In this document: positions 26,241-37,818 of the stretch, piece after piece
Layout of the letters: each line of letters begins with the position of its first letter
Position numbering within the stretch: the stretch's first letter is position 1
From: Chloroflexota bacterium
GTDB lineage: Bacteria > Chloroflexota > Dehalococcoidia > Lucifugimonadales > Lucifugimonadaceae
Assembly: GCA_022567135.1 (NCBI GenBank)
Contig: JADFHP010000011.1
Location: 1-37,818, forward strand
Direction of reading: 5' to 3'
DNA length: 37,818 bases
Position numbers and translations under genes: made by a program
The notes under the pieces: generated by a model
Told to the model about the DNA's origin: nothing
What the model saw: the letters and a program-made list of their open reading frames with translations, nothing else
Database searches by the model: none

Positions 26241-27572
26241 TCAGCGACCCGGATCGTATATCTCCAGGGTCGCTATTGTGTCGCCGCCGGTAAATCCGCC
26301 GCTGACCAGAACACGGCCGTCCGGAAGCGCTGTTGCGCGGTGGCTGAGGCGGGGCTGCGCCATCTCTCCGATGAAGGTCCACTCGCCATTCTGTGGATCG
26401 TAGATCTCGGCGGAGGACAGGAACGCGAGATCGTCCGTTCCGCCGACCACAAGGATCCGGCCGTCGGGCAACACCGCCATGGCATGCCCGCTGCGCCTGT
26501 TATTCATATCGGCCAGTTGCCGCCACATGCCGGTCTCATCGTCGAACAGTTCGGTCGAGATGTGGGTTTCTACGTTGCCATCACTGGAGAGCCCGACTCC
26601 ACCGACTACGAATATTTTGTTATCGCGCAACAATGTGGCGGTATGGCCTGATCTGCCGGCGATCATTCTCTCCGCCTGGGCCCACGTGCCATCGGCAGGA
26701 TTGAAAACCTCCACGGAAACCTGGTACCCGGCATCACCTGATCCCCCGGCTACCAGCGCGCGCCCATCGGGCAGGAGGGTCACAGCTGGAAAAGCCCGGC
26801 GTTGGTCGATGTTGCCCGCAAACTCCCAACTATTGGTCTCTGGATCGTAGATCTCAGAATTGGGTACGAGCGACGAACGGCCCGAGCCGCCGATCATGAG
26901 TACCCTGCCATCGTCCAGCAAGATAGCGCCCTGCCCGAATCGCAACTCAATCATTTCCGGGATCGCAGTCCAGGTATCTGTCACCGGATCGAAAATCTCC
27001 GCAGACCCGATCACCTTCACGTCGTCCGCGCCCCCGGCGACGAGGACGCGACCATCCTTCAGCAAAGTCGCGGTGTGGCCCGCGCGCGCCACGACCATGT
27101 CACCTGCGAGCATGAGACTGTCGGTTGCGGAATCGAACAGCTCAGTCTGCGCCACGGCGTCACCGAACCGGTCACGGCCTCCGGTAATCAGCACTCTGCC
27201 GTCGCCGAGAAGTGTCGAAGTGTGCTCCTCCCGCGCCATGAGTAGATCACCTATTCGCTGGAATGCCAGCGGCTGAGGCGTTGCTGTCGGAAGTGGCGTT
27301 GGCGTCGGTGGCCGCGGCGTGCGGGTAGGGGTGGGAACGGGGTCGGCCGCGGGCGTGACGAGCGCAGTCGGAAGCGCGGTTGGCCCGGCAGCACCCGGCG
27401 TTGTGGGACCAGGCGTCGAAGAACCGGAACAGGCGATGGCCAGGACTGCCGTTAACCCGGTGGCGAACGCCACGAGGCGTGGCGCCGGTAACAACCCGTG
27501 CGATACAGAAAGCCTGCCCATACGGAATTTGATGCGCGAGAGGCGGTTGAAGTGCATACGAATCGCAGTCAC
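26241..27572 (-). CDS. Kelch-repeat (7-bladed propeller) putative lipoprotein
   Basis: Lipobox LTAVLAIACSGSS, TPTPTRTPRPPTPTPLPTATPQP linker, seven DGRVLxxGG-type blades. Start could be internal (e.g. MGRLSVSHG). Confidence 0.85.
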   Translation of the reverse strand: MTAIRMHFNRLSRIKFRMGRLSVSHGLLPAPRLVAFATGLTAVLAIACSGSSTPGPTTPGAAGPTALPTALVTPAADPVPTPTRTPRPPTPTPLPTATPQPLAFQRIGDLLMAREEHTSTLLGDGRVLITGGRDRFGDAVAQTELFDSATDSLMLAGDMVVARAGHTATLLKDGRVLVAGGADDVKVIGSAEIFDPVTDTWTAIPEMIELRFGQGAILLDDGRVLMIGGSGRSSLVPNSEIYDPETNSWEFAGNIDQRRAFPAVTLLPDGRALVAGGSGDAGYQVSVEVFNPADGTWAQAERMIAGRSGHTATLLRDNKIFVVGGVGLSSDGNVETHISTELFDDETGMWRQLADMNNRRSGHAMAVLPDGRILVVGGTDDLAFLSSAEIYDPQNGEWTFIGEMAQPRLSHRATALPDGRVLVSGGFTGGDTIATLEIYDPGR

Positions 27573-30611: not shown

Positions 30612-31520
30612 CTAAATCCGGTAGTACCGCTCGGCGTTGCGCCAGAACAGGCCATCACGCTCCGACTGCGAAAACTCCGCGGTGATCTCGTCATAGGCGT
30701 CCCATAGCCGCTTGTACGTGGTCATCAGGCTGTCCACGGGAAAGTTGCTTGCGAACATGCATCGCTCTGCGCCCATGATCTCAATCGTATCCATCACGAA
30801 GGGCCGAATTTTCTCCGTCGTCCAATCCCAATCCATCATCGACAGCGCCGATATCTTCACCGAGACCTGATCGACTTCCGCAAGCGCCTTCATCCCGGCC
30901 CGCCAGACCTTCGCGAGCTCAGAATCCAGGTCTTTCGGCATGCCGGTGTGGTTCAGGATTATCGGAATTTGAGAAATCTCCCGGCCAAGTTTCGCCGCCT
31001 CCTCAAGCTGCCACGGCCATACCTGCAGGTCGAACGACATGCCGAATACGCCGAGCTGCCGATATCCACGTCGCCACTGATCGTCGCTCATCAGGCCGTC
31101 GCGGTCCGCAAACCGCAGTCCCGGATCGTCGGAATAGTTCAGCATGTGCCGGATGCCGCGCATATTCGAGTGTTCGGCGTGGCGTGAGAGAACTTCCTCG
31201 ACATCGGGCTTGCCGAGGTCGGCGAAACCGACGATCGCGTTCGGCATCCCCCTCGATGCCGGATCATCCGCCACGCCCTGCAGCCATGCCGTCTCCTTCA
31301 CCGGATCGTCATTGTGGTCGAACTCGGCCTGCACGTGAACGGACTTCACAAGATCGAATTCGGCGGCGTCACGATGGAGATCACCGATGAGATAGCTCTT
31401 TCGAATCGGCGAGTAATCTCCGACGAAATGGTCTATTGGCTCCACGAGCCATGGGTAGTAGTTTGTTTCAAGGTCCCAGAGATGATGGTGCGTGTCTATG
31501 ATCTTCATTGGGATTCTCAC
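30612..31520 (-). CDS. Amidohydrolase family (TIM-barrel, COG3618-like)
   Basis: MKIIDTHHHLWDLETNYYPWL, VHVQAEFDHNDDPVKETAWLQ, ADLGKPDVEEVL, PIILNHTGMP, SALSMMDWDWT, RCMFASNFPVD. Confidence 0.9.
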   Translation of the reverse strand: MRIPMKIIDTHHHLWDLETNYYPWLVEPIDHFVGDYSPIRKSYLIGDLHRDAAEFDLVKSVHVQAEFDHNDDPVKETAWLQGVADDPASRGMPNAIVGFADLGKPDVEEVLSRHAEHSNMRGIRHMLNYSDDPGLRFADRDGLMSDDQWRRGYRQLGVFGMSFDLQVWPWQLEEAAKLGREISQIPIILNHTGMPKDLDSELAKVWRAGMKALAEVDQVSVKISALSMMDWDWTTEKIRPFVMDTIEIMGAERCMFASNFPVDSLMTTYKRLWDAYDEITAEFSQSERDGLFWRNAERYYRI

Positions 31521-31869
31521 GAGATGGAATGCTCCCTGGGCCCGCCACTTCCACGGCGCTTGCTATTTCGGCGTAGTGCGCAGTGTGCCACGCGGGCCCG
31601 ATTTTGGGGAAACTGGAACAGAGGCACTACGTAACTGGCCGCCTGTACGTGAAAACACCTACGGGCAAGAGAATTCATCCACCCCTGAACCAAGGATTCG
31701 CACAGGGGATTCCTTCCCAGGACCATCTATTCTCAACCGAAGGCTCAAATTCCCAGGAAACGCCAACTCGTTGCACCACCCCCACCGCCATCCTCTCTCC
31801 TTCGCCTGCCCGGCCCGGCCGGGCGGAGTCAGCGAAATCACGCGTACGCCGAATGCAGAGGCAGCCTGA

Positions 31870-33285
31870 ATGCCATCTGTAATGATCGTGGCGCGCCCCG
31901 GCAACGACCGGAAAGCGCTGTTTAACCACCTGAAAAACGAAGGCTTCATCGTCCACGAAATCGACGACGGGGGATCGGCGCTGGAACTGATCCGCGTTCT
32001 CAAACCGGCCGTCGCGATCATCGACATCGATCTGCCGAATCAGGATGGCCTCAGCGTACTCAAGTCGGTACGCGCCTCGTCGGTGACCAGAGGGCTGCCG
32101 GTGATCCTGACCGGGGCCTCCGAGCGGACGGCCGTCAGGTCTACAGCAAACACTCTGAACGTGGTTGATTACCTGATTCGTCCCTTCCTGCCGGAAGAGG
32201 TCGCTTTGCGGGTGAACTGGGCGCTCAAGGGCACCACAAACACTCCAGCGGTGCCATGGGATCAAACAGACGTCATTTTGCGCCAGATAGCGGCGGCGGA
32301 CGCTACCGAAGATGCGCCGCCTCCGGAGACGACTCCCGCCGTCGTCGCGGCATACAAGAAACTCATCGCGGACGCCAAAGTCCTGCCTGGCGCGGCGATC
32401 TCCATGATGACGCCTGAAGAGGGCGGAACCGTCGAGACGAAAGACGGTGTCGTTCGAGTAGATGTCCCGCCGGGCAGTGTGCGCCGGCCGATGTCCCTCG
32501 GAGCGTCGAGGCCCGCATCTCCGGCGCCGCCGCTCGAGGACTCAGTTCGCTTCCGGATGGGCCGGCGGGTTGCCGACCTGACGTTCATCGACCAGACGGG
32601 CTCTCCCATCGGCGGCATGAAGCTGGACCGGCCGGTGAAGATTTCGATCAAATACGACGAGCGGGACATTGTCGAAGCCGGCGGTTCTGATGCACTGGCA
32701 CTCCAACGCTATCGCCCCGAATCCGACGATTGGGAAGAGATCTCGTCCTCTCTCGACCGGAAGGAGCAGCGATCGGTGGCCTGGGCGCGGAATTTCAGCG
32801 CGGCCAGGCAGATGCTGGGTGGCAAAATCCTGATCGCTGAAGGCGTTGGTGAGGGACAGATTTATCTGGCAGAGACCGTAGAGGGCGCCGGCTTTATCGT
32901 GCTCCTGGAGCCCGACGGACTCGCCGTCACCCGCAGAGTCGCCCTGGAACGCCCGGACGTAGTTCTGGTAGACCTTGCGTTGCCCAGACTGGACGGCATC
33001 CAGGTGCTGCGCCAGATCAAGGGCGACCCGGCTACCCGCTCAACACCGGTGATTTTGTTCGGCGAGAACGAGGACGAGAACCTGCAGGCGTCGCTGATGA
33101 CGATGGGAGTCAGGGAGCTGATCCTGAAGCCCTGGCAGGCGGGCGATGTGCAGCAACGGGTGCGGCGCGCATACCAGGCTTCCAGGGCCACGAAGAGCCA
33201 GCAAAATCGCGCCGTGGAGCGCGTAAAGGCCAGGCACGTGCGCCAGGTGCGGCACTCGGCAAGACGGGCGCGCCGGGCGTCTTAG
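31870..33285 (+). CDS. Two-receiver response-regulator-like protein with central ZU5-like domain and Arg-rich C-terminal tail
   Basis: REC1 about 31870..32235 (AIIDIDLPNQDG, VILTGAS, DYLIRPF). ZU5-like region about 32388..32825 (TPEEGGTVETKDGVVRVDVPPGSV...DRPVKISIKYDERDI...LALQRYRPESDDWEEISSSLDRKEQRSVAWARNFSAARQ). REC2 about 32825..33170 (VVLVDLALPRLDG, ELILKPW). Confidence 0.8.
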   Translation: MPSVMIVARPGNDRKALFNHLKNEGFIVHEIDDGGSALELIRVLKPAVAIIDIDLPNQDGLSVLKSVRASSVTRGLPVILTGASERTAVRSTANTLNVVDYLIRPFLPEEVALRVNWALKGTTNTPAVPWDQTDVILRQIAAADATEDAPPPETTPAVVAAYKKLIADAKVLPGAAISMMTPEEGGTVETKDGVVRVDVPPGSVRRPMSLGASRPASPAPPLEDSVRFRMGRRVADLTFIDQTGSPIGGMKLDRPVKISIKYDERDIVEAGGSDALALQRYRPESDDWEEISSSLDRKEQRSVAWARNFSAARQMLGGKILIAEGVGEGQIYLAETVEGAGFIVLLEPDGLAVTRRVALERPDVVLVDLALPRLDGIQVLRQIKGDPATRSTPVILFGENEDENLQASLMTMGVRELILKPWQAGDVQQRVRRAYQASRATKSQQNRAVERVKARHVRQVRHSARRARRAS

Positions 33286-35375
33286 CTAATCAACAGGTTG
33301 CCGAAGCGGTCGACGTTTGCCGCTGTCCCGGGATGGATGACGGTCGTCGAGTCGACTTCCTCGACGATAGCCGGCCCCTCGATCGTATCCCCCTCTCCCA
33401 GTCGATAACGATCGTAGACGCGGCAATCGATCAGCCCCCCCGACTCGGCGAAGTAGACCTTCCGGGTTTCTTTCACGGCCCCATCGGAGCCATTCCCGGC
33501 GCCCACTTCCCGCAGGCTCGGCCTGGCGATGGCTCCAAGCGCCATGACCCGCAGGTTCACCAGCTCTACCGGCTCCTCAAGTGCCTTGTGGCCATACGCT
33601 CGCTCATGCTCCACGTGGAACGCGTCGGACACCCCTGTGAGCGTGGCCGCGTCGAGATGCCCTGGCGGCAGGCTCACGCCCAGTTCGTAGCTCTGGCCCA
33701 CGTATCGGACGTCGGCGTGCCGCTCAAAGCTCATATCGCTGCCGCGCACGCCCTCGCGGACAAGCGAGTTTCGGCCGCGCTCTTCCAGATCGTCGAGCAC
33801 CGACTCGATCTCAGCCGGGTCGCACTCGTCGATCCGCCTGATCCGCGTCATGGAGTTCTCATGCTTCAGATCGGTGACGAGCAGCCCCATCGCCGAGGTG
33901 ATCCCCGGGCTCATGGGGATGATAGTCAACGGAACTTCCGTCTCCATTGCCAGCTTCGCGGCGTGCACGGGCCCGGCCCCGCCGAACGCAACGAGCACGA
34001 AGTCACGCGGGTCATAGCCGCGCTGTACGGAGATCAATCGGATGGCGTTGACCATCGCTGAATTGGCGATTTCAACAACACCGTTCGCCGCCTCAAGGAG
34101 GTTTAGGCCAAGCGGTTCTGCGCAGTTCTTGAGCACGGCCTCCTCGGCAAGTTCCGGCTGCAACGGCAACTCGCCGCCGAGGAAGTAGTCTGGATTGAGC
34201 CTGCCAAGCACGAGATTGGCGTCTGTGATCGTTGCGTCTGTGCCGCCGTTGCCGTAGGAGGCCGGACCCGGCGCCGCGCCTGCGCTCTGCGGCCCGACTC
34301 GCAGCACTCCGCCCGAGTCGACCCACGCAATCGAGCCACCTCCAGCGCCGATCTCCACCAGGTCGATTACCGGTGTTCTGATCGGGTATCCGCTCCCGCG
34401 ACCGGACCCGGTGTCGGCCGAGGCCTTTGCGCCGACTTCGTAGTCCTTTGTGATCCGGGGCGTACCGTCCTGAATGAGCGCGGCCTTGGCAGTGGTGCCG
34501 CCCATGTCGAGCGATAACACGTTCCTGTGGCCGATGGCTTCGCCAACGTAAGCGGCCGCTATAACTCCCGCGGCCGGGCCGGACTCCACCATGTAGACGG
34601 GGCGCTCGCTTGCCGCCTCGAAGTTATATACGCCGCCGTTGCTCTGCATCACCAGCAGCTCGGCGCCGAGGCCGTCCGCCCGCAGCCGTTCTTCGATCGA
34701 GTCCAGGTAGCGGCCAATGATCGGCCTGATGGAAGCATTGATTACCGTGGTGCTTGCGCGGAAATACTCCCGGAACTCGGGAACGATGTCGGACGAGATA
34801 GAGATCGCGGCATCGGGAAGCTCCTCGCGCAGGATCTCGCCGATGCGCCGCTCGTGGTCCGGGTTGGCGTACGAGTGGAGCAGGCAGACCGCGACGGCCT
34901 CGACACCCTCTTCCCGGAGGGTTATGGCGGCCTGCCGAGCGTTCTCTTCATCCAGCTCGGTAACAACTGCGCCGCGGGCGTCGAGCCGCTCGGGGATGCC
35001 GAAACACAGATAGCGGGGCACAAGCGGGGCTGGCTTCTCGAACTGGAGATCGTAGAGCGACGGCCTGATCTGACGGGCGATCTCCAGCATGTCGCGAAAG
35101 CCCTCGGTCGTCAGAAATCCGGTGCGCGCGACTTTCCCCTCGATGATCGCGTTAGTCGCGACTGTCGTGCCGTGGACGACGTAGCTGACCTGCTTCGGGT
35201 CGACTGCCGCCTCACGGAGAATGCGACCCGTTGCTTCCAGAAAGGCGCGCGATGGGTCGTCCGGCGTGGAAGGGACCTTCGTGATCCGTACTTCGCCGGT
35301 CGATTCGTTGATCAGCACGCCGTCGGTGAACGTTCCGCCGACATCGACTCCAAGCCTGTAGCTATCCGTTGCCAA
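33282..35375 (-). CDS. Hydantoinase/oxoprolinase family protein, HyuA-like (probable TTG start at 35375 inside the 33282..35702 ORF)
   Basis: RLGVDVGGTFTDGVLINESTGEVRITKVPSTPDDPS, VVHGTTVATNAIIEGK, VESGPAAGVIAAAYVGE, LSLDMGGTTAKAALI, FGGAGPVHAAKLA. The N-terminal 109 aa of the longer ORF are antisense/overlap to HyuB and not HyuA-like. Confidence 0.93.
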   Translation of the reverse strand: MATDSYRLGVDVGGTFTDGVLINESTGEVRITKVPSTPDDPSRAFLEATGRILREAAVDPKQVSYVVHGTTVATNAIIEGKVARTGFLTTEGFRDMLEIARQIRPSLYDLQFEKPAPLVPRYLCFGIPERLDARGAVVTELDEENARQAAITLREEGVEAVAVCLLHSYANPDHERRIGEILREELPDAAISISSDIVPEFREYFRASTTVINASIRPIIGRYLDSIEERLRADGLGAELLVMQSNGGVYNFEAASERPVYMVESGPAAGVIAAAYVGEAIGHRNVLSLDMGGTTAKAALIQDGTPRITKDYEVGAKASADTGSGRGSGYPIRTPVIDLVEIGAGGGSIAWVDSGGVLRVGPQSAGAAPGPASYGNGGTDATITDANLVLGRLNPDYFLGGELPLQPELAEEAVLKNCAEPLGLNLLEAANGVVEIANSAMVNAIRLISVQRGYDPRDFVLVAFGGAGPVHAAKLAMETEVPLTIIPMSPGITSAMGLLVTDLKHENSMTRIRRIDECDPAEIESVLDDLEERGRNSLVREGVRGSDMSFERHADVRYVGQSYELGVSLPPGHLDAATLTGVSDAFHVEHERAYGHKALEEPVELVNLRVMALGAIARPSLREVGAGNGSDGAVKETRKVYFAESGGLIDCRVYDRYRLGEGDTIEGPAIVEEVDSTTVIHPGTAANVDRFGNLLIS

Positions 35376-35386
35376 TTCCCTTCTCG

Positions 35387-37141
35387 TTAAGATTCTGCAT
35401 AGGTGAGGCGCAGCGCTTCTGTGCCCGCCTCGTCGACAGTCCAGTTGTCTGTGTCCACGACGACTCCGTACTCGGTGCATGCGCGCTCGGGGCTTACCTT
35501 CCCCTCGCGAACGTCCCGCAGCACCAGCTCGGGCGACCGCTCGAACGGCGGGCCGTAGCCGCCGCCGCCGCAGGTCTGGTAGCTGACCACGTCGCCCGGC
35601 ATCAGATCGAGGGTCAGCTTCGAGCCAAGCTCGCGCGCCTCGCCGTCCGGGTTGAGTATGTAGTAAGCCTTCTTTCCGGCCTTCCCGCCGAATAGCCCCC
35701 ATGGCCCTGAGATCTCGCGGTCGGCGAGGATGGTGAATCGAGCCTCCACGTCAGGGAACATGTAGTCGCGTCGCAGTCCGAGGCCGCCCCTGTGTTTGCC
35801 GGGGCCGTCGGAGTTCTCGACCAGCTCATAGCGGTTGATGCGGACCGGGTGCTTCGCCTCCGTCTCTTCGATGGGCGCATTCTCGGTGTTCTGGCCGTGC
35901 GCCTGCACCGCATCTGGGCCGTCCAGGGTCGCCCTGCCGCCGTAGCCGCCGGCAAGCGCCTCATACGAGCACTTGTACTCCCTGTCCACGGGGTCGATGA
36001 CGCCGAAGCCCATCTGGCACTGCATCGCCTTCGTGCCTGCGGGAACGCGCTCCGGCACGGCTTCTGACAGCGCCTTGAAGATCAGATCGTTGAGCCGGTC
36101 CTCCGTCTCCCATCCGCCGACGACCGGCGCCGGATGAACGGCGTGAGTCACGGTACCGGGCGGCGCGGTGACGTTCATATACCGGTAGAAGCCGTCGTTG
36201 ACCGGCAGGTCCTTGTCCAGCAGCGCCCGCAGCCCGTACGCACACCCGGAGAAGGTCATCGCGTACGTGGAGTTGACCGGCGCCCGGCGTTGCGGATCGG
36301 ACCCCGTGGTATCGAAAAACACACCGTCATCATCGATACGGACCTCAATGACCAGCTTAACCACCTTGTCCGTGAACCCGTCGCTGTCGAGAAATCCCTC
36401 TGCTTTGTACGTGCCCTTTGGAAGGCCGGCGATCTCAGCCCTGGTTCGGCGCGCCGTGTACTCCAGCAGCTCGTCCATGTAGAACATGATCTCGTCAAGG
36501 CCGTAGCGGTCGAACAGGCTGGCCAGGCGGCGGTTGCCAATCAGGTTGGCCGAGACCTGGGCCCTGAAGTCACCGGTCGTTTCGCGCTTCGACCGAATCT
36601 GGGCCAGCACAAGGGTGAATATGTCGTGATCGATCTCTCCTGCGACGACCATCTTGACCGGCGGGATGATGACGCCTTCCTGGTAGATCTCCTGGAACGC
36701 GCCAAGGCTGGCGGGCGCGCCGCCGCCGACGTCGACGTGGTGCGCGAGCGTCGCGAGGTATGCGACCGGCTCACCCATCTCACCGTCGGGCGGGTAGTAG
36801 ACCGGCGCGATCAGCGTCACGTCGTTCAGGTGGGTGCCGCCCGAATAAGGGTCATTGACCAGGATCATGTCGCCCGGCCCCATGTTTTCCAGCCCGTAGA
36901 ATCGAATCGCACGGGGGATCAACTCTACGAACGAGCCGAGGTGCACCGGCTGCGTGAAGGCCTGCGCGACCACCCGCAACCGGCTATCGAGAATGGCGCA
37001 GGAAAAGTCCTGGCGCGTCTTGACGTTGGTCGAATACGCGCTGCGGCGCAACGCAGCCGCCATCTCCTCGGTGGCTGCGGAGAGGGCGCTGCGAACTACC
37101 TGTAGCCGGATGGGGTCGAAGGCGTTGCTGCCGTGCGTCAC
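35387..37141 (-). CDS. Hydantoinase B/oxoprolinase family protein, HyuB-like
   Basis: DPIRLQVVRSALSAATEEMAAALRRSAYSTNVKTRQDFSCAI, GDMILVNDPYSGGTHLNDVTLIAPVY, GQNTENAPIEETEAKHPVRINRYEL, GGGGYGPPFERSPELVLRDVREG. Confidence 0.95.
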   Translation of the reverse strand: MTHGSNAFDPIRLQVVRSALSAATEEMAAALRRSAYSTNVKTRQDFSCAILDSRLRVVAQAFTQPVHLGSFVELIPRAIRFYGLENMGPGDMILVNDPYSGGTHLNDVTLIAPVYYPPDGEMGEPVAYLATLAHHVDVGGGAPASLGAFQEIYQEGVIIPPVKMVVAGEIDHDIFTLVLAQIRSKRETTGDFRAQVSANLIGNRRLASLFDRYGLDEIMFYMDELLEYTARRTRAEIAGLPKGTYKAEGFLDSDGFTDKVVKLVIEVRIDDDGVFFDTTGSDPQRRAPVNSTYAMTFSGCAYGLRALLDKDLPVNDGFYRYMNVTAPPGTVTHAVHPAPVVGGWETEDRLNDLIFKALSEAVPERVPAGTKAMQCQMGFGVIDPVDREYKCSYEALAGGYGGRATLDGPDAVQAHGQNTENAPIEETEAKHPVRINRYELVENSDGPGKHRGGLGLRRDYMFPDVEARFTILADREISGPWGLFGGKAGKKAYYILNPDGEARELGSKLTLDLMPGDVVSYQTCGGGGYGPPFERSPELVLRDVREGKVSPERACTEYGVVVDTDNWTVDEAGTEALRLTYAES

Positions 37142-37818
37142 TGGCTGCCCGACCGCAGTTCGGCAGTAGCCGCCTCATCCACCGTCCCGCCGTCTTCAGC
37201 GATGGCGACCCTGTAGAAACGGCTGGCCCGCTCGCGGCTGATCTTGCCGTCTCGCACGTCTTTCAGGACGCGCTCGGGCGGGCGCTCGGCCGGGTTGCCG
37301 AATCCGCCGCCGCCTGCGGTCCGATACGAGATCACGTCGCCGGGCTGTAGCTGCACCGTCGTCTTGGAGCTGAGTTCCACGTTCTCGCCGTCCGGGTTGA
37401 GCACATAACTCGCCTTCATGCCGGGCATGCCGCCGTCCAGGCCGTGCGGACCGGCCTTGTCGCGGTCGGCAAGCACGGTGAACGTCACATCATGATCGAA
37501 AAAGACGTAATCCCGCCGCAGGCCGAGGCCGCCCCGGGTCCGTCCCGGCCCGTCCGAATCGTCCACAAGCTCGTAGCGGGGTATCCGCACCGGATAGTTG
37601 AATTCCGTCTCCTCGATGGGCGCGTTCTCCGTGTTCTGGCCGTGGCACTGGACGGCGTCCGGGCCGTCCGAGTAGCGGCGTCCGCCGTAGCCGCCCGCGA
37701 GCGTCTCAAGGAAGCAGTAGTACTCGCCGGATTCCGGGTCGACGCCGCCGAACCCGGCGTGGCACTGCATCGCCTTCGTGCCTGCCGGAACCCGGTCCGG
37801 CATCGCCTGATGCAGGGC
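37138..37818 (-). CDS. Second HyuB-like protein, C-terminal part only (runs off right edge)
   Basis: Frame open to the window edge (ALHQAMPDRVPAGTKAMQCHAGFGGVDPESGEYY...GQNTENAPIEETEFNYPVRIPRYEL...GGGGFGNPAERPPERVLKDVRDG); ATGA overlap with the downstream HyuB. Confidence 0.94.
   Translation of the reverse strand, partial: ALHQAMPDRVPAGTKAMQCHAGFGGVDPESGEYYCFLETLAGGYGGRRYSDGPDAVQCHGQNTENAPIEETEFNYPVRIPRYELVDDSDGPGRTRGGLGLRRDYVFFDHDVTFTVLADRDKAGPHGLDGGMPGMKASYVLNPDGENVELSSKTTVQLQPGDVISYRTAGGGGFGNPAERPPERVLKDVRDGKISRERASRFYRVAIAEDGGTVDEAATAELRSGSQ

Follow-up and report, generated by a model that had tools for sequence, protein, structure and literature searches.

A genus-restricted REC-ZU5-REC protein of Chloroflexota, in which a ZU5 module of surface-protein type lies between two receiver domains

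A protein in which a ZU5 beta-sandwich is placed between two receiver (REC) domains, followed by a basic C-terminal helix, is encoded in the stretch of 37,818 nucleotides from a Chloroflexota bacterium of the family Lucifugimonadaceae that was analysed here (hereafter, the window). Among the genomes examined, this REC-ZU5-REC architecture is a genus-restricted variant of double-receiver proteins. While the anatomy of the protein is secure, its mechanism is inferred: at about even odds (a probability of roughly 0.5), the window protein would be an atypical response regulator that serves as a scaffold for protein docking. Its parts are individually of known kinds; new to our knowledge are the way in which they are combined, the fact that the origin of this combination can be traced, and its spread within a genus. 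A first-pass annotation made from the DNA letters had already recognized the outline of the architecture; the pseudo-receiver state, the five paralogues, a surviving REC-linker-REC form and the loss of a His and of the last strand from the ZU5 part are points absent from it. Features of the locus are collected in Table 1; scanning it for promoters and RNAs yielded no result.

Table 1. Features of the REC-ZU5-REC gene and its surroundings, in window coordinates
Feature	Position	Strand	Basis or remark
REC-ZU5-REC gene, 471 aa	31870..33285	+	Open reading frame; no same-strand neighbour in the window's genome
REC1, residues 1-122, pseudo-receiver	31870..32235	+	Pfam, key residues, AlphaFold2 model
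Conserved linker motif past REC1, residues 122-131, consensus about VPAVPWD	32233..32262	+	Family alignment
Linker, residues 123-168: 123-154 of low confidence, short helix at 156-168	32236..32373	+	AlphaFold2
ZU5 beta-sandwich, residues about 174-311	32389..32802	+	Fold; homology to surface modules
ZU5/REC2 junction, residues 308-318: N-F-S, then polar linker	32791..32823	+	Alignment with surface relatives
REC2, residues 317-437, pseudo-receiver	32818..33180	+	Pfam, model, key residues
alpha5 C-terminal extension and basic tail, residues 438-471, net +11	33181..33282	+	Model, charge
Intergenic stretch	31521..31869	.	In the orthologous locus of G002, this place is taken by a histidine kinase gene (GAF-HisKA-HATPase)
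Divergent neighbour Amidohydro_2	30612..31520	-	Synteny marker at the locus in 4/4 genomes of the genus
Convergent neighbour hydantoinase A	33282..35702	-	Gene ends share a 4-bp overlap with the REC-ZU5-REC gene

The reading frame has zero internal stops, and a frame artefact or a chimera could be ruled out, since 13 intact genes from three genomes share the whole architecture. Both ends of the protein match Pfam Response_reg in two stretches (E 7.4e-31), in agreement with the AlphaFold2 model and with the receivers first proposed there by eye. Response_reg alone rises above the Pfam cut-off, and neither the HTH, kinase or GGDEF parts whose absence had been remarked on in the first-pass annotation nor any other annotated output domain was found by Pfam in the window protein. 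The full-length AlphaFold2 model, built on an input alignment of 13 sequences, shows REC1 (residues 1-121), a poorly ordered linker (123-154), a short helix, the beta-sandwich (176-309), REC2 (319-437) and a long C-terminal helix in this order. Its mean pLDDT is 79.8 and its pTM 0.58, values at which each domain as modelled is secure, the placement of the domains relative to one another being of low confidence. The sandwich predicted to lie between two receivers is thus where it was expected, and the middle, when modelled alone from 49 aligned sequences, reaches a pLDDT of 92.3 and a pTM of 0.86.

It had been suggested that this middle is ZU5-like, and its fold bears this out: the top 16 Foldseek matches in the PDB are all ZU5 domains of ankyrin and ZO-1 (probability 0.95-1.00, TM about 0.45-0.56, identity 11-18%), and the first match after them drops to a probability of 0.13. 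At the profile level the outcome is divided. Pfam ZU5 (PF00791) is silent on the middle of the window protein at any reported level, and no significant ZU5 match was obtained for it among Pfam, NCBIfam and PDB sequences, while by hhalign it is aligned with surface modules of the same genus at 99.8% probability (E 1.9e-28). Matches of the middle to kelch were discarded as short W-motif matches. In the wider alignment of the module, ZU5 is the Pfam family matched by most members, though the matches are weak (best E 0.02) and number 4 of 49. Two proteins from the same taxonomic family (G031:C28 and G014:C1) exceed the Pfam ZU5 cut-off, and a profile of the module matches them in the same position (E about 1e-9). 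Because of the Foldseek matches and these sequence bridges, we accept the middle as ZU5 by fold and distant homology, and not on the basis of Pfam membership.

How far can the two receivers still work as phosphate-controlled switches? Five catalytic positions are relevant, namely two acidic residues, the Asp, a Ser/Thr and a Lys. Those of the window REC1 are A8, R9, D52, G82 and R104, of which the Asp alone is kept, and those of REC2 are E324, G325, D368, G398 and K420, with one acid, the Asp and the Lys kept; the Asp codons lie at 32023..32025 and 32971..32973, respectively. Since each receiver is without one or more of the five residues, both are, as judged from these positions, pseudo-receivers by the definition of PMC12632262. 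The phosphoacceptor-type receivers of the first-pass annotation thus stand as far as D52 and D368 are concerned, but not for the remaining active-site residues. According to PMC12632262, phosphotransfer may survive changes at DD, T or K, and pseudo-receivers that retain the Asp may still be weakly phosphorylated; the window copy might be phosphorylated at D52 or D368. Beyond the orthologue group of the window gene, all REC1s have the acidic pair, the Asp and the Lys, and most of them the Ser/Thr, while REC2 misses at least one catalytic position everywhere in the family: its phosphoacceptor Asp is Gly in five paralogues, and both Asp and Lys are changed to Gly in the group of C92, C77 and G2-C8. 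In the orthologue G002:C2, REC1 has Asn at the phosphoacceptor site. The family pattern looks like a switchable REC1 combined with a degenerate REC2, and in the window lineage REC1 has decayed too.

Five full-length copies are present in G000, the genome of the window, on contigs C159 (the window), C163, C43, C92 and C77; G003 has five as well, G002 has three, and G001 has a single copy that is split over two frames and contains a stretch of masked residues. The family is therefore present in all four genomes of the genus examined. Paralogues align nearly full-length to the window protein (E 1e-58 to 1e-91), and the window orthologues are 85% (G003:C167, in the record Chloroflexi MAG B70T1L10, JADFPB01) and 59% (G002:C2) identical to it. 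In the 250 genomes of the order, matches to more than one domain are confined to these four, the other listed matches being receivers alone, and the remaining 246 gave no instance of the whole architecture. Without receivers, the module is widespread: its profiles match 109 of 393 genomes at the level of the class and 36 of 400 at that of the phylum. Among the best-matching loci opened outside the genus, which beyond the order were the best 50 or so, no receiver was in frame with a ZU5 module, and many encode visibly exported proteins that carry a signal peptide as well as an LPxTG-type or membrane anchor at the C-terminus. A Burkholderiales match (L042) was rejected, as it has only receivers of the chemotaxis type (CheV/CheY-like).

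The origin of the architecture can be read from trees that take in a gene still lying beside one of the copies. About 50 bp past the stop of the C163 copy starts a second double-receiver gene, which has a linker and no ZU5 between its receivers, and the same tandem pair is present in G002 and G003. In G000 this REC-linker-REC gene is located at L021:4964-6091 (G000:C163:9963-11090), and both of its receivers look canonical. Its linker, Pro-rich in G000 and acidic in G002, looks unstructured and is unconserved between them, and a basic tail is found in this neighbour, too. In a tree of 64 receiver domains, including 32 other receivers that were sampled, the REC1s of ZU5 proteins go with the neighbour REC1s (97/85), and their REC2s form a single clade (100/98) that joins the neighbour REC2s (100/96) separately from the 32 others; taken alone, the REC1s of ZU5 proteins also come together in the best tree, but as a weakly supported clade (75/52). 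The second tree, which is unrooted, contains 49 ZU5 modules; those borne by REC proteins are monophyletic (100/100) and lie beside surface proteins of the same genus (97/87). Those surface proteins end in LPATGD (Gram_pos_anchor), and every genome checked has a sortase gene; in L025:3356-4492, L034, L038 and L039, exported proteins of the same genus, a ZU5-like module is followed by such an LPATGD/LPxTG-type anchor. From the groupings in the two trees, the simplest reading of the sequences is that a surface ZU5 module of the same genus took the place of the linker in a REC-linker-REC gene on a single occasion, and that the paralogues arose by duplication and diverged afterwards. This agrees with the earlier proposal that a surface module had been moved into a cytoplasmic double-receiver protein, as the relatives of the module are of the exported or surface type and the nearest of them in the ZU5 tree belong to the same genus.

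In each of the four genomes, the site is flanked by genes for the amidohydrolase and hydantoinase A. In G002 the histidine kinase gene ends about 17 bp upstream of the REC-ZU5-REC gene, while the kinase is absent from this locus in G000 and G003, with no remnant of it found in the upstream gap of the window. In G001 (L132:5151-6139, G001:C17), the first 300 kinase codons directly adjoin what is left of the REC-ZU5-REC gene, its last 40 codons, and the two parts are in different frames; this looks like a deletion, though an assembly error might also account for it. Because the kinase is adjacent in G002, abuts as a fragment in G001 and is absent in the window and G003, it was probably an ancestral partner at this locus that was lost in the window lineage. 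Other copies keep other company: that on C77 adjoins a gene for a Ser/Thr kinase that also contains AAA and TPR parts, and that on C92 adjoins a cluster (L023, G000:C92, 142-3653) encoding a PP2C phosphatase, an FHA-Trans_reg_C fusion and a protein in which three FHA domains are present. As for the rest of the window, the longest-ORF start of the hydantoinase A gene (33282-35702, minus strand) adds about 110 residues without a Pfam match, and the G001 homologue gives strong alignment from residue 110 only; judging from this, the true start is probably near 35370. A tandem pair of hydantoinase B genes (35387-37818, minus strand) follows, the second being truncated by the window end, and a 443-aa protein at 26241-27572 (minus strand) consists mostly of kelch repeats (Pfam Kelch_1, Kelch_4, Kelch_6).

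As to the mechanism, in a typical paralogue a histidine kinase would phosphorylate REC1, whose packing on the ZU5/REC2 unit would then be altered so that a docking surface of ZU5 becomes exposed or hidden. Such phosphate-gating is plausible, from their residues, for the paralogues with a canonical REC1, and probably does not operate in the window copy, where docking would probably be constitutive or controlled by the level of a partner, independently of phosphate. It is to be noted that the G002 orthologue, which has the adjacent kinase but Asn at the REC1 site, counts against a simple kinase-REC1 pairing. A docking role is ascribed to ZU5 by analogy with its functions elsewhere (ankyrin-spectrin, ZO-1-GRINL1A), and ZU5 would here be a binding module, not an autopeptidase. 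The most conserved receiver elements across the family include beta4, beta5 and alpha5, and REC2 is supposed to serve as a pairing module, its most conserved part being beta5-alpha5 (0.76 and 0.69, versus 0.46-0.65 for its remaining elements). The basic C-terminal helix is a candidate anchor to a partner or nucleic acid.

Is it then possible that the ZU5 part cuts itself, or does nothing at all? Some members of the ZU5 superfamily autoproteolyse (PMC3482391), and the window protein has N-F-S at residues 308-310 where H-F-S would be expected; self-cleavage as in PIDD or NLRP1 could free REC2. In surface relatives the module commonly ends in H/T/R-F/L-S followed by a hydrophobic strand, and the His is present in 14 of 36 of them. 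In all 13 REC-borne modules, however, the position of the His is taken by R, N, D, Q or E, the Ser is missing in most, and a polar junction stands in place of the last hydrophobic strand, which would follow the cleavage point; the mean hydrophobic fraction of the eight residues past the ZU5 end is 0.23, versus 0.61 in surface relatives. With the His and the last strand missing throughout, autoproteolysis of the REC-borne ZU5 is unlikely by sequence, and a switch built on it is hardly credible. A related idea, to be regarded as a long shot, is that the captured ZU5 is an incomplete sandwich, fused just ahead of the final strand where autoproteolytic ZU5 domains cut, whose open edge could take a partner strand in trans under the control of the receiver state; if true, this would be a new route of scaffold assembly for two-component proteins. 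Alternatively, ZU5 might bind nothing and merely set the distance and angle between receivers like the former Pro-rich linker, whose place it took in an otherwise similar protein; the linker of the neighbour is, as described above, unstructured-looking and unconserved. Such a passive spacer is fairly unlikely, given that ZU5 is kept in every full-length paralogue and is constrained nearly as the receivers are, with a conservation of 0.57-0.61 against 0.36 for the real linker. The PAVPWD motif is on a par with the receivers. Between the window gene and its 85%-identical G003 orthologue, dN/dS is 0.18 for REC1, 0.23 for ZU5, 0.13 for REC2, 0.26 for the linker and 0.30 for the tail. From these values of 0.13-0.30 in every segment, the gene is under purifying selection, with ZU5 kept at roughly the same level as the receivers.

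The same values bear on whether the window copy is turning into a pseudogene after loss of its kinase. Active-site residues are lost in both receivers, the adjacent kinase is missing in G000 and G003, and the kinase and gene fragments abut in G001; still, the open reading frame is intact in three species at 59-85% identity, the overall dN/dS is about 0.2 or less, and ZU5 and REC2 are conserved, so that a decaying gene seems decidedly improbable. Another possibility is a nucleic-acid-binding regulator whose basic C-terminal helix binds DNA or RNA under regulation by ZU5 and the receivers. A basic Arg/Ala-rich tail is shared by all members (net +2 to +21 in 13 of 13) and by the REC-linker-REC neighbour, but it is poorly conserved in sequence and length (0.45), and Pfam detects no known nucleic-acid domain; we hold this unlikely. 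A docking scaffold remains our preferred reading of the window protein.

No account of REC-ZU5-REC was found in the literature searched, whether on response regulators with ZU5 or on ZU5 among Chloroflexi, nor any description of ZU5 as a partner domain of pseudo-receivers, and PMC8195603 and PMC3482391 place bacterial ZU5 in surface, toxin and apoptosis-related settings only. What was once suggested as a new class of adaptor is better taken as a variant of double-receiver proteins within one genus. The activation of pseudo-receivers has been called a mystery (PMC12632262), and a series from canonical to degenerate receivers within one architecture is useful for the question of their control. 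What makes the case attractive is a traceable capture of a surface-protein module by cytoplasmic signalling: a single genus of uncultured Chloroflexi, to which REC-ZU5-REC is confined among the genomes examined, still contains proteins of the likely donor type, the form before insertion and several fused copies that diverge independently, and thus the order of events is readable and testable.

Among known systems, PleD of Caulobacter receives its phosphate on REC1, and its REC2 is a degenerate adaptor. PleD (REC1-REC2-GGDEF, PDB 1w25/2v0n) has two receivers per chain like the window protein, for which reason it is the best Foldseek match of the full model, and its division between REC1 and REC2 resembles that in most REC-ZU5-REC members; the window protein differs in having no GGDEF, in the ZU5 between its receivers and in a REC1 that is degenerate too. 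FrzZ, the dual CheY-like protein of Myxococcus, consists of two receivers joined by an Ala/Pro-rich linker with no output domain. Its layout resembles, at the architecture level, the REC-linker-REC neighbour of the C163 copy, and differs from REC-ZU5-REC in lacking ZU5. The ZU5 domains of ankyrin and ZO-1 are protein-binding modules, for spectrin and a GRINL1A peptide, respectively. Their fold (PDB 3kbu, 3f59, 4d8o, 2kxs) is common with the window middle, which in contrast is bacterial and sits between receivers, with no UPA or death domain seen. The closest homologues by sequence and tree are the bacterial surface ZU5-like modules (e.g., that of G000:C133, LPATGD-anchored), which are exported and anchored and keep the hydrophobic last strand that the REC-borne modules lost. 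With the atypical response regulators of PMC12632262, finally, the window protein has in common receivers that miss one or more of the conserved residues.
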